A stretch of DNA of 64,000 nt, taken from NCBI GenBank assembly GCA_012840015.1, contig DUMF01000016.1, forward strand, positions 1 to 64,000, given 5' to 3'. Position 1 is the first letter of the stretch, and every line of letters starts with the position of its first letter. The notes below the pieces were generated by a model, which was not told where the DNA came from, made no database searches, and worked only from the letters and a program-made list of their open reading frames with translations. Positions 1,317-64,000 of this stretch are shown one piece after another. This DNA comes from Bacillota bacterium. GTDB lineage: Bacteria > Bacillota > Sulfobacillia > DUMF01. A program made the translations under genes and the position numbers.

Positions 1317-1432
1317 GGCAGAGTAGGGATTGCGCGTAAAGTGCCACCGGATGGGAAGTTGCCGGTGGACGAAGGGACGACGAGCATAATCGTGTTCTAG
1401 AGTCCCGCGGTGCAAAGCCCGCATCCGCTGCC
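1317..1432 (+). ncRNA. tetrahydrofolate (THF) riboswitch aptamer
   Basis: The sequence opens with GGCAGAGTAGGGATTGCGCG, contains GGATGGGAAGTTG and GGACGAA, and closes with GCGGTG...GCATCCGCTGCC. The outer GGCAG/CTGCC helix, the AGAGTAG and GCATCCGC core elements and the GGATGGGAAGTTG hairpin match the THF riboswitch class. It lies 80 bases before a folate-type ECF transporter gene, the expected target. Downstream, CTCCTCCTA (1457-1465) is perfectly complementary to TAGGAGGAG (1494-1502), which holds the folT ribosome site, so control is probably at translation. Confidence 0.9.
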
Positions 1433-1511: not shown

Positions 1512-2084
1512 TTGCATTCCAAGACAGTTTCCCGTATCGGTATACTTGTAGCCCTCAGTGTGATCCTGACCAGGTATTTCGGATTCATGGTGAACGTGGC
1601 AGGTGTAATTGGCCTCAGAATCAGTTTTGGAGAAGTCCCAATCATGGTTTCGGGCATCCTGCTTGGCCCGGCTGTCGGAGCAGTGACGGGGATCTTATCT
1701 GACCTCATAGGTTACATGCTTAACCCAGCTGGAGGACCATATTATCCAGGCTTCACGTTGACTGCAGCGCTAGAGGGCGTTTTACCGTCTATTGTTCTGT
1801 CTGCTTTGGGACAGGGTCAACGGGGCAAGCCCAAAGGAAGCTGGAGCTTCCCGAAGATTCTCTTGGCAGTCGCAATAACGGGCGTCTCATGTAGCACCTT
1901 GCTGAACACTTTTTGGATTCATCGACTCTATGGGAAAGCGTTCGTGGTTCTCCTACCCTCCAGGATCGTAGCCAGGGCTTTTCTCATTCCAGTTCACTCA
2001 ATGGTGATCCACGTCCTCGTCAGGGCGTTCACGCCTAGTCTCTCTCAGCAACCGCTGGGGCAGGCGGGCAATACGGGGGCCTGA
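1512..2084 (+). CDS. folT: ECF transporter S component, folate-specific
   Basis: A 190-residue integral membrane protein with about six hydrophobic segments, of the folate ECF S-component family. It binds folate in the membrane and works with a shared ECF energising module (two ATPases and EcfT), which is not in this window. The start is TTG at 1512, ten bases after GGAGGAGG; no earlier start fits. The THF riboswitch just upstream supports the substrate. The last 87 bases overlap the end of the convergent bioY gene. The substrate assignment rests on family resemblance plus the riboswitch. Confidence 0.85.
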   Translation: MHSKTVSRIGILVALSVILTRYFGFMVNVAGVIGLRISFGEVPIMVSGILLGPAVGAVTGILSDLIGYMLNPAGGPYYPGFTLTAALEGVLPSIVLSALGQGQRGKPKGSWSFPKILLAVAITGVSCSTLLNTFWIHRLYGKAFVVLLPSRIVARAFLIPVHSMVIHVLVRAFTPSLSQQPLGQAGNTGA

Positions 2085-2600
2085 AGTGGCAGCTATTACC
2101 ACCTTGAGCAGGTCGCCCGGAATAAAAGGCAATGCGCCTAAAAGTATTGCTTTAGCAATTGGTATCCGGGCTACCACGCAAAGTTGCGCCACGCCCAGGA
2201 CGTAAACTGAGAGTATGCCTCCAGCAATCGTCGCTCCGATGGCTCCTGCAAAGCCCTTGTGCGACCAGCGAAAGAAGGTGCCGGTTACCCAGGCGCCCAC
2301 TACGAACCCCCAGATGTACCCACCGGACGGGCCTATGACAACGCCCGGCCCGGCTGCTTTGTTTGCGAACACAGGCAGTCCAAGAACACCTAGCAAAACA
2401 TAGACGATCTGACTAATGGCGCCATATTTGGGGCCGAGGACCAAACCCGCCAGCATCGGACCCAGGCTCTGGCCGGTGACAGGTATCGGCGTAAACGGAA
2501 GAGGAATCTTTATCAGACTCAACACCGCAGTAACGGCCCCGAAAAGAGCACACAGCACGTAGGCTACCAGCCGCTCAGGAGGCTCCACCCGATCCCGCAA
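1998..2600 (-). CDS. bioY: biotin ECF transporter S component BioY
   Basis: A 200-residue, six-helix membrane protein of the BioY family. The diagnostic GPSGGYIWGF stretch (near residues 91-100; consensus GPTGGY) and the N-terminal ITVPLPFTPIPVTGQ-like region (here KIPLPFTPIPVTGQ) are visible. It imports biotin, with an ECF ATPase module or alone. It is the last gene of a minus-strand operon and follows birA by 15 bases, so uptake and use of biotin are linked. The start is TTG at 2600, preceded by GGGGTGA. Its 3' end overlaps the 3' end of folT on the other strand. Confidence 0.92.
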   Translation of the reverse strand: MRDRVEPPERLVAYVLCALFGAVTAVLSLIKIPLPFTPIPVTGQSLGPMLAGLVLGPKYGAISQIVYVLLGVLGLPVFANKAAGPGVVIGPSGGYIWGFVVGAWVTGTFFRWSHKGFAGAIGATIAGGILSVYVLGVAQLCVVARIPIAKAILLGALPFIPGDLLKVVIAATSGPRIARLPQRLLRETRRERPDEDVDHH

Positions 2601-2615
2601 TCTGCGTCACCCCGT

Positions 2616-3437
2616 TTACCAGTGTGAAAGCGTAACATCGCCTGCGTAAATGTTCACCGAACGACCATTACCTAGAATACGCACCCTCAGCGCGCCGTCA
2701 AGCTCGATCTTCAAGGCTTCGGCGGCAAATACCGTCTGGCCGTCGTTAACCCGGACTGTCTTACCCAAAGTAACGCACTTCGAAGAGATCAGTCTCACAA
2801 GCTCCTGCCTATCGCCTCCAACAAAAAGTCTGTACGCCCGGTCTAGGGAGGTGAGAACCGAGGCCATAACCGCATTTCTGTCGGCTGCTCGCCCCAGAAG
2901 CATCTTCATGGAGGTAGAGACCGTCCTTATCTCTTCCGGAAGACTCTCCGGGTCGAGGTTTGCGTTTATCCCAATTCCTGCGATTACCCACAGTTCGCTG
3001 CATTCACACAGCACGCCACAGAGTTTCTTGCCATCGGGAACTGACACGATATCGTTAGGCCATTTGATCCCCAACGGATTGCCGTTCAAGTGGCACTGAA
3101 GTCCTTCACACACTCCCAAACCCACCGCCAACGGCAGAAGCCCCAGCGAATCACACCGACCCGGGCGTAATATTACACTGAACCACAAACCGCCTGCCGG
3201 CGAAAACCAGCGTCTTTGGAGGCGCCCCCTCCCTTTCGACTGGCGCTCTGCGATTATGACGGTCCCCTCCGGCTCCCCATTTTGCGCTAAAGCACGCGCT
3301 TCGTCGTTTGTGGATTCGCACTCAGAAAAGAGGCATATTTTCTTCCCTATCCTGGATCCTTCGAGGAGGGACTGAATTCTGGAAGGATTCAGCTCACTCC
3401 CCATCTCGTCGAGACCTCCGACACGCCAGTCCGACAT
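2616..3437 (-). CDS. birA: biotin--[acetyl-CoA-carboxylase] ligase, no repressor domain
   Basis: 273 residues covering only the ligase part of BirA. ESTNDEA (41-47), the biotinyl-AMP loop GRGRLQRRW (69-77), SPAGGLWFSV and KWPND (125-129) are present, followed by the small C-terminal domain. It activates biotin with ATP and attaches it to a lysine of biotin carboxyl carrier proteins. The N-terminal winged helix of bifunctional BirA is missing, so it is probably a group I ligase without DNA binding. The start ATG at 3437 has AGGAGGG eight bases upstream. It sits five bases after the ThiS/MoaD-like gene and directly before bioY. Confidence 0.93.
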   Translation of the reverse strand: MSDWRVGGLDEMGSELNPSRIQSLLEGSRIGKKICLFSECESTNDEARALAQNGEPEGTVIIAERQSKGRGRLQRRWFSPAGGLWFSVILRPGRCDSLGLLPLAVGLGVCEGLQCHLNGNPLGIKWPNDIVSVPDGKKLCGVLCECSELWVIAGIGINANLDPESLPEEIRTVSTSMKMLLGRAADRNAVMASVLTSLDRAYRLFVGGDRQELVRLISSKCVTLGKTVRVNDGQTVFAAEALKIELDGALRVRILGNGRSVNIYAGDVTLSHW

Positions 3438-60854: not shown

Positions 60855-62749
60855 TCTCTCGCCCGTAGCTTCCCCTTTCTCTCCAAAAACCCTACGACGT
60901 GCTCCGCCACGTCCTCTGCTTTCAGGCCCAGACGTTTCAACCATACCAGTCTATCACCATGCGGCACAAATCGAGCTCCTATCCCGAGATTCAACACCAG
61001 ACATCCTGGGGCCTCCTGGCAGAGTATTTCAGCGACAGCGCTACCGAATCCTCCCTGCACCACGTGCTCCTCCACGGTCACCACAGCCCCCGTCTTTTCT
61101 GCAAGTGCCACCAAGTTCTCCCTGTCCAGCGGGTTGAGATATAACGGGTCGAAAACGGCCGCCGAAACGCCTTTGTGGTGTAGCAGTTCAGCAGCTTCGA
61201 GGCATTGAGTGATCATGTTGCCAACTCCGATGAGAACTACGTCTGTACCGTCGCGAAGGAGTTCTCCCACCCCCGGTTCTAGGAATTCCAGCTCTTCAAT
61301 CCGGAGCTGCACCGTACCCTCTGCTTCCCCTCTCGGATATCTCACGGCAACGGGCCGATCTAACCGGATTGCGGTGTATAACATGTTCTGCAGCGACCTA
61401 GCGTCTCTAGGTGCCATCAACACCATTCCAGGGATGTGCCGGAGGTATGAAATATCGAAGATACCCTGGTGGGTGTCACCGTCTCCACCTACAAGCCCAG
61501 CGCGGTCGATAGCGAAAACCACAGGAGCCTTCTGCCTGCACACGTCGTGAGAAATTTGGTCGTAAGCCCGTTGCAGAAATGTCGAGTATATCGCAACCAC
61601 GGGCTTCAGTCCGTTCAAAGCAAGTGCTGCGGCAAATGTGACTGCGTGAGATTCTGCTATACCGACGTCGAAAAACCTATTCGGAAATTCCTCTGCAAAT
61701 TTATCGAGCCCGGTGCCGTCTTTCATGGCAGCAGTTATGGCTACGATCCTTTTGTCTTCGCGGGCCAGTTCGCACAGGGTTTTACCGAAAACCTGGCTAT
61801 AAGTAGGGTTGTTGTTCTGCTTAACGATACATCCGCTTTCTATATCGAACGGACCCGGCCCATGATACAGCTCCGGCTTACACTCCGCAGGACGGTACCC
61901 ACGCCCCTTTTCGGTGATTACATGTACCAGCACTGGTCCATTCAGCTTCTTGCTGCGCTGGAACACCGATACCATCTGTTCTATGTCATGCCCGTCTATA
62001 GGACCGAGGTACACGAAGCCAAGCTCCTCGAAAACCACTCCAACGTTGAGTAAGTACTTGAGGCTGCCTTTGAGCCTTGTGGCCATATGCACAGCCCAAT
62101 CGCCTACAACCGGAAGGCCTTTCAGTCCGCGTACTACCTTGGCACGCAGGCCGAGGTAGCGCGGGTCAGTACGAATCGTGGCGAGATATCTCGCGATGGC
62201 TCCCACGTTCCTGCCAATAGCCATAGAGTTGTCATTGAGCACCACAAGCAGCTTTGTTTTGCCCAACCCAGCGTTGTTGAGCCCCTCGTAGGCCAGGCCT
62301 CCGGTGAGCGATCCATCACCGATCACTGCCACAACCGAGTAGTTCTGTCCTAAAAGGTCGCGTGCCTTGGCAAATCCCAAAGCCGCTGAGATCGAAGTGC
62401 TGGCATGTCCGGTTTCCCAAACGTCGTGGGGGCTCTCAGCCCTCTTCGGAAACCCAGACAAGCCATCAGTCAACCTGAGAGAGTCAAAATCCTTGTTTCT
62501 TCCGGTTAGGATCTTATGAGCATAACACTGGTGACCGACGTCCCAAATGATTTTGTCACGCGGAGAATCAAAGGCCAGATGTAAGGCGACCGTCAGTTCA
62601 ACAGCCCCTAGGCTTGCACCCAGGTGTCCACCGTTCTTGGACACCACCTGAATTATCCGTTCTCTGATCTCCGAACAAAGCTGTCGAATCTCTTGAGGAG
62701 TGAGTGCTTTCAGATCATCCGGTGAGTTGATCCGCTCGAGAATCCCCAC
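60851..62749 (-). CDS. dxs: 1-deoxy-D-xylulose-5-phosphate synthase
   Basis: 632 residues. The thiamine diphosphate motif VAVIGDGSLTGGLAYEGLNN, GHQCYAHKILTGR, GPIDGHDIEQM, RAYDQISHDV and ERAGLVGGDG-type DRAGLVGGDGDTHQG are present. It condenses pyruvate and glyceraldehyde 3-phosphate, the first step of the MEP isoprenoid pathway. The GTG at 62749 overlaps the oapA stop (TAGTG) by one base. It is followed by tlyA and nadK in one operon. Confidence 0.96.
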   Translation of the reverse strand: MGILERINSPDDLKALTPQEIRQLCSEIRERIIQVVSKNGGHLGASLGAVELTVALHLAFDSPRDKIIWDVGHQCYAHKILTGRNKDFDSLRLTDGLSGFPKRAESPHDVWETGHASTSISAALGFAKARDLLGQNYSVVAVIGDGSLTGGLAYEGLNNAGLGKTKLLVVLNDNSMAIGRNVGAIARYLATIRTDPRYLGLRAKVVRGLKGLPVVGDWAVHMATRLKGSLKYLLNVGVVFEELGFVYLGPIDGHDIEQMVSVFQRSKKLNGPVLVHVITEKGRGYRPAECKPELYHGPGPFDIESGCIVKQNNNPTYSQVFGKTLCELAREDKRIVAITAAMKDGTGLDKFAEEFPNRFFDVGIAESHAVTFAAALALNGLKPVVAIYSTFLQRAYDQISHDVCRQKAPVVFAIDRAGLVGGDGDTHQGIFDISYLRHIPGMVLMAPRDARSLQNMLYTAIRLDRPVAVRYPRGEAEGTVQLRIEELEFLEPGVGELLRDGTDVVLIGVGNMITQCLEAAELLHHKGVSAAVFDPLYLNPLDRENLVALAEKTGAVVTVEEHVVQGGFGSAVAEILCQEAPGCLVLNLGIGARFVPHGDRLVWLKRLGLKAEDVAEHVVGFLERKGKLRARE

Positions 62750-63300
62750 TACCTTCGATCGTTCCCTCCTTCCAGCCCCACAAGACTGGCAGCCCATTCC
62801 AGAGCTATCCCAGCTAGCCTGGTTATCTCGTTGGCTTTGGAAATTCCGTAGCTTTTGGCGAGCGCTTTTCCGGCGATCGTAACCCCTGCAACAGTGGCTA
62901 TCGCCACTGGCATTAGGTTAACTCCCCAGACCGCTCCCACTCTAAATGCGACTACCGTCCCAACCGCTCCCGCTATTGTCCCACAAAGGTCCCCTACGAA
63001 ATCATTGCAGAAACTGGCCACTTTCGCCCTGTTTCTGCATAGCCAAACGCTCCTTTTTGCACCCTTGAGTTTCTTAGAAGCCAAAGAGTGAAAAACAGCT
63101 TCGTCTGCCGAAGCTGCTGCCACCCCTATCATATCAAAGACTATTCCTGTCAACAGGACCGCCGCCAGAACCAGCATTGACACGACCTGACTGATACCAA
63201 AAGCCAGCCTGTTTAAAGTACCCGTCAGGGCAATCGCCACGCAAAACGACGCGATCCCCACCAACAACGCGTGAGTTATGTCAGATTTGGTTATCCGCAT
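62749..63300 (-). CDS. oapA: OLE-associated membrane protein OapA
   Basis: 183 residues with several hydrophobic segments: ALLVGIASFCVAIALTG, VVSMLVLAAVLLTGIVFDMIG, and two more toward the end. A charged loop (KLKGAKRSVWLCRNRAKVASF) and NDFVGDLCGTIAGAVG lie between. Size, topology and position, directly after the OLE RNA and before dxs, match OapA, which binds OLE RNA at the membrane and affects tolerance to cold, alcohols and Mg. The ATG at 63300 leads straight into the coupled dxs. The name rests mainly on the context. Confidence 0.8.
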   Translation of the reverse strand: MRITKSDITHALLVGIASFCVAIALTGTLNRLAFGISQVVSMLVLAAVLLTGIVFDMIGVAAASADEAVFHSLASKKLKGAKRSVWLCRNRAKVASFCNDFVGDLCGTIAGAVGTVVAFRVGAVWGVNLMPVAIATVAGVTIAGKALAKSYGISKANEITRLAGIALEWAASLVGLEGGNDRR

Positions 63301-63309
63301 CTCCCCGAA

Positions 63310-63857
63310 GCATGTTCTATCGTTGCGCGGTGGCCTGACAGTGAGTAAAACCTACGGCTTAAGGTCCAGCAGGCTTTCCCTGCCGGCCACCCGCCGTCGC
63401 CGAGCGGGCGGTTTCCCTTTAAGGCCGCTCGACCCCGTCACCGAAGGCCGCGCTGGATCGCCACTTAGTCCGTACTTTAATCCTCCCTGTCAGCCCCGCC
63501 GGGGACAGCCTAGAAGTTTTCCTTTTCGATCAGCACTACCCCTAGCCCCTTTTGCAGTGCCGATTTCGGCACGAGCCTCCCTCAGGCACCGCTCAGGGCA
63601 GGCTACTCTGCAAGCAGTGTGCTCCACCTGCAGGTTATGCTCGCACCGCTCGTGCAAGCCTCACGGAGATAGGGACTTAACCTGCATGCCGTTGCAGGCC
63701 ACCCCATCCCCTTCCCGCCTGCCCGGACCGGTCGCTGGGCCGCCACCAGCCCGCACAAGCGGTTTCATCGGTATGCCCTCTACGGCTTTTTAGGTCCGTT
63801 CTTGGGATAGCCAGTATCGACTAGGATACTGCGCCACCGCGCTAAAAACAGCCTAGT
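63310..63857 (-). ncRNA. OLE (ornate, large, extremophilic) RNA
   Basis: About 550 bases of GC-rich, highly structured non-coding DNA on the minus strand between an extended -10 promoter and oapA. The 5' end forms a hairpin with GACTAGG/CCTAGTC arms. Many more helices can be drawn, for example GCCGGCAGGG-type and GGCACGAGCC-type stems. No open frame with a ribosome site runs through it. Its place ahead of oapA and dxs is the known OLE location in Firmicutes. Ends are approximate. The identity rests on context, size and structure rather than an alignment. Confidence 0.78.
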
Positions 63858-63861
63858 CTGA

Positions 63862-63870
63862 ATTATAGCA
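63862..63870 (-). promoter_or_regulatory. extended -10 promoter of the OLE-oapA-dxs transcript
   Basis: On the minus strand TGCTATAAT is a perfect extended -10 (TGnTATAAT). No good -35 box was found. The start point near 63856 falls at the first stem of the OLE RNA. Confidence 0.6.
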
Positions 63871-63937
63871 TACGCTCAAGATATCTCGGGGCAAAATTGC
63901 CTTTAGGTAATCTATGAGTACATTTGGATATTGAAAC

Positions 63938-63957
63938 TGTTTTGCTATAGCAAAACA
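63938..63957. repeat. perfect palindrome upstream of the OLE promoter
   Basis: TGTTTTGCTATAGCAAAACA is a perfect 20-base palindrome about 70 bases upstream of the OLE -10 box. It could be an operator or the hairpin of a terminator for an upstream gene outside the window. Confidence 0.5.
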
Positions 63958-64000
63958 ATCGCCTAAATAATCACACACCCTCTTCCGGCATTCTCCCTCT

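Follow-up and report, generated by a model that had tools for sequence, protein, structure and literature searches.

OLE RNAs rank, to our knowledge, among the largest RNAs of bacteria that have no assigned biochemical function, and a recent cryo-EM structure of an OLE dimer has reportedly raised the idea of a membrane-spanning RNA. Published work on H. halodurans describes OLE as an abundant RNA that binds the protein OapA at the membrane, that is co-transcribed with upstream genes, and that belongs to clusters of isoprenoid, translation, DNA repair and cell-wall genes (PMC12265935). In the cryo-EM dimer, the L9.3 loop forms bridge B3 via a palindromic sequence, which is GGCC or, by covariation, GAUC or AGCU (PMC12286853). 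A survey of OLE diversity additionally reports that OapA is related to the Mg2+ transporter MpfA (PMC11332333).

We investigated a window of 64,000 nucleotides from the genome of an apparently uncultured Bacillota-type bacterium, in which an initial annotation had read a gene-free, strongly structured stretch as an OLE RNA, followed by OapA, and had proposed a search with the Rfam OLE covariance model and a comparison of the protein with OapA; the outcome of both was positive. On the minus strand this model, RF01071, matched positions 63853-63314 over its full length (1-616 of 616), scoring 366.7 bits where the gathering threshold is 50 bits (E = 3.8e-104). The stretch is thus a genuine copy of OLE RNA, as the initial annotation had rightly judged on its sequence alone, and adds a member to an already known RNA class. 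It is present once in the genome. The 540 nt RNA (ole, 63314-63853) has a predicted minimum free energy of -273.4 kcal/mol (z = -7.4 against dinucleotide shuffles, none of 100 shuffles being equally good), which bears out the claim of strong structure, but genes are absent from the stretch only below position 63853, since ispA lies above. OLE RNAs were identified in 56 of 61 genomes in a search of the class (the genome of the window included) and, at the level of the phylum, in 217 of 300; none of 14 control genomes had one. As in the described members of the family (H. halodurans, C. acetobutylicum and C. botulinum), the RNA contains nearly all conserved single-stranded blocks, the k-turn region, the L4, L5 and L6 loops and the end loop of P13, with oapA directly downstream and ispA, xseA, folD, nusB, dxs, tlyA, nadK and argR as neighbours. 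It differs from them in its length (540 nt versus about 600), in shortened P7 and P9 arms, and in the absence of the palindromic L9.3 kissing loop. In a tree built on the RNA core without P7-P9 it sits on a long branch and was not placed, indicating a divergent member. The RNA is ordinary as a discovery, with modest extra value as a compact natural variant.

The ends of the RNA are set by a terminal helix, P1, in which the 5' strand GCGCGGTGGC (63842-63833, minus strand) forms ten perfect pairs with the 3' strand GCCACCGCGC (63334-63325). Most class relatives retain this helix with other sequences, for example GGCAGGTGGCG/TGCCACCTGCC and CTGCGGGTGGCG/TGCCACCCGCAG, and these compensatory differences support it. 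Upstream, the extended -10 box TGCTATAAT that had been proposed as a promoter is found at 63870-63862 (minus strand), but it lies within the last codons of ispA, a feature overlooked in that proposal: the polyprenyl synthetase gene (PF00348, E 9.2e-42; 63853-64000, minus strand, running past the edge of the window) ends only with its TAG at 63855-63853. Similar boxes, scored as TGnTA(T/C)n(A/C)T within 60 nt upstream of OLE, occur in 20 of 44 loci, compared with 6 of the 1544 control stretches taken from these loci, and a dedicated ole promoter is therefore likely, judged from sequence. The box in the window could be a chance occurrence inside ispA, and a generic promoter scan left it unflagged because there is no accompanying -35 box.

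Downstream of the RNA, the gene for a 183-aa membrane protein, oapA (63300-62749, minus strand), is coupled to dxs (62749-60851, minus strand; TIGR00204, 818.7 bits) as initially described, the TAG of oapA and the GTG start of dxs overlapping as TAGTG at 62751-62747. The cluster continues on the same strand with a tlyA-like S4/FtsJ methyltransferase gene (60944-60048; PF01479, PF01728), nadK, encoding NAD kinase (60051-59203; PF01513, PF20143), and the arginine repressor gene argR (59198-58737; PF01316, PF02863). The full gene order is asp23 (yqhY-like), nusB, two flavin/iron-sulphur enzyme genes, folD, xseA, ispA, ole, oapA, dxs, tlyA, nadK and argR. The two enzymes between nusB and folD are presumably an NfnAB or glutamate-synthase-like pair, judged from their sequences rather than by database search. 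This arrangement matches the kind of cluster published for OLE (PMC12265935). The same paper names ArgR as an unpublished candidate OLE partner, and the position of argR here, three genes after dxs, may be a meaningful linkage.

Synteny, homology, a weak CNNM profile match and the predicted fold identify the 183-aa protein as OapA, in agreement with the initial annotation and with the published OapA-MpfA relation (PMC11332333); RNA binding by this protein is putative. Its homologues adjoin OLE in most of the relatives fetched, and 100 complete OapA reading frames were recovered from OLE loci with short P9 arms. Six columns of the OapA alignment (G52, D56, D100, G103, D104 and G111) are invariant, and a basic stretch, a KKLKGAK...RNR block, is conserved. 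Neither Pfam and NCBIfam searches at default thresholds nor a profile search of PDB sequences returned a match to OapA, and its relation to CNNM proteins is visible only at weaker profile thresholds and by fold search. With E values up to 0.1, 37 of 46 aligned homologues matched the CNNM transmembrane domain (PF01595; best 5.1e-8), the window protein doing so with E 0.0018, below the Pfam gathering score. An AlphaFold2 model of OapA (pLDDT 92.4) gave, as its six best PDB matches in Foldseek, exclusively chains of CNNM/CorC Mg2+ transporters, with probabilities of 0.99-1.00 and E values of only 0.02-0.44. OapA thus shares with the CNNM/CorC/MpfA family a predicted fold and a weak match to the transmembrane domain, and differs in lacking CBS and CorC domains and in being coupled to OLE RNA. 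The start at 63300 directly abuts GGGGAG with zero spacing, so the exact start codon is unsure. We found no relatives of OapA in viral contigs.

The genome additionally encodes the other known OLE partners. Gene position and a match to PDB 7k9b, 'OLE-associated protein B' (E 6.5e-7), revealed an OapB homologue located between map and infA, which the KOW family model did not list in the genome. The gene between rpoC and rpsL encodes an OapC candidate that has YbxF as its closest match (4lck and 3v7e; E about 5.5e-16) and carries the conserved Gly15 of the YbxF-type OapC (PMC9723947), and bS21 is also present. We could not find CNNM proteins above the family cut-off in the genome, the sub-threshold matches being oapA itself (the best) and one other, whereas 12 of the 14 control genomes contain such proteins. 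As the assembly comprises 29 contigs and is 96% complete, the absence of MpfA is not certain. The locus independently repeats the published pattern, in which OapA, OapB, OapC and bS21 are present and MpfA is absent.

The suspicion that the RNA is a compact variant was borne out. At 540 nt it ranks fourth in shortness among the 55 OLE matches of the class that cover the full model (515-688 nt, median 615), and measured between fixed anchors its P7 (22 nt) and P9 (36 nt) arms are short, with ordinary P8 (23 nt) and P13 (29 nt). The shortened P9 arm (63606-63543, minus strand; anchors GTAGCCTG...GGGGCTA) is closed by a stable hairpin with a UCGU loop cap and contains no six-base palindrome, whereas long P9 arms in the class (69-98 nt) carry GGGCCC or another palindrome. 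The loop that forms bridge B3 is thus absent, as its palindrome is from many other OLE RNAs, and since the palindromic L9.3 loop varies within the family it is not required for membership. The B1 motif (L4 CUAAAAA) and the B2 motifs (L5 GCCCA and L6 GGCAUG) are intact, although the bridge contacts themselves are predicted, and any dimer of this RNA would therefore be held by B1 and B2 only. The P13 end retains the GGCGAC loop and the arm length seen in relatives, consistent with a putative binding site for OapB.

The shortening of the arms is in itself already known, because RNAs with shorter P7-P9 are named variant 1, from TANB77 and other clades, in the published survey (Fernando and Breaker 2024, PMC11332333). 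The window RNA shares the shortened P7 and P9 with variant 1 as described there, but has an ordinary P8 and a retained OapB-binding P13 end, where variant 1 has a short P8 and often no OapB site. In contrast to the TANB77 hosts of variant 1, which for the most part lack OapB and OapC, the window genome encodes both. We found no statement that RNAs with shorter P7-P9 lose bridge B3 in the available portions of the literature outside subscription papers.

We considered whether a short P9 might be unique to this genome, and rejected this, as a pattern search of the GTDB species set with a P9 gap of 18-48 nt matched 118 further contigs. Hosts include Clostridium tepidiprofundi, C. ganghwense, Thermoactinomyces, Lihuaxuella and Melghirimyces, as well as many Syntrophomonadaceae/Dethiobacter-type MAGs and gut Clostridia. 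GGGCCC was absent from all 123 short P9 arms, and only two of the 123 had a palindrome of at least six bases in the predicted apical loop. On the core tree the P9 state changes between short and long at least 4-5 times by well-supported branches, and 10-11 times in the best tree, counted irrespective of direction. On balance, we lean towards the view that the short-P9 RNAs, with the window copy as one of the shortest seen, constitute a recurrent structural class without B3, in which dimers would rest on B1 and B2 alone or adopt another geometry, and that the P9 arch is a lineage-specific, dispensable module. The main use of the window RNA could be to probe, in a natural variant, the importance of bridge B3 and to show which elements the OLE dimer requires. 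It retains domain 2, the protein sites and the B1 and B2 motifs without the P9 kissing loop, which sets the likely core apart from an arm that is optional, and structural studies could profit from it as a smaller construct.

Further short-P9 RNAs (L046, L052, L145, L156 and L162) form another family, in which GNRA-type tetraloops (GCGA, GGAA) cap P9 at the place that the kissing loop occupies in long forms. Short-P9 RNAs were additionally identified in records that bear the names delta proteobacterium, Desulfovibrio, Actinomycetota and Peregrinibacteria (L089, L108, L109 and L110); these labels are probably binning or naming errors, which are noted for such matches in PMC11332333.

We are almost certain that the window holds a functional, compact OLE ribonucleoprotein locus, based on the RNA family, the gene order, the four partner genes, the lack of a CNNM protein above cut-off in the genome, and the predicted OapA fold. 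In such a locus, a dedicated extended -10 promoter would drive transcription of ole, which is probably also transcribed within the nusB-folD-xseA-ispA-ole-oapA-dxs cluster, and the RNA would take the two-domain OLE fold, closed by the 10-bp P1. OapA, as a CNNM-type membrane protein, may bring the RNA to the membrane, while OapC would bind it at the k-turn and OapB at P12/P13, with bS21 as a further binding protein. The complex may serve as a membrane stress and metal-ion device that replaces MpfA-type Mg2+ transporters, with membrane binding and the stress function carried over from published work on H. halodurans.

The position of the RNA directly upstream of oapA and dxs, in the same orientation and with no clear terminator between, would also suit a long structured 5' leader that regulates these genes and does not act in trans. 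However, the RNA belongs to the OLE family, whose H. halodurans member is abundant and binds OapA at the membrane (PMC12265935), and the closed P1 helix gives the RNA defined ends, making a leader very improbable. We regard as less probable still that the compact form is a decaying gene, an early pseudogene heading to loss, as the short P7 and P9 arms, a score below that of most class relatives and the long branch in the core tree might suggest; nearly all conserved blocks and the helices are kept, including a P1 of its own sequence, P9 is closed by its stable hairpin, oapA is intact, and the partner genes are present. That the stretch is just intergenic DNA folding by chance, for which nothing speaks except high G+C, is already refuted by the z value and by the E value of the match to a family missing from every control genome, and has practically no probability left.

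At the other end of the window, we identified a THF riboswitch (1317-1432, plus strand; RF01831, 78.8 bits), itself ordinary, followed by an ORF for a 190-aa membrane protein (1512-2084) resembling a FolT-type folate ECF component. Converging on this gene is an ORF that, judged by sequence alone, resembles BioY (1998-2600, minus strand), adjoined by a BirA-like ORF (2616-3437, minus strand).
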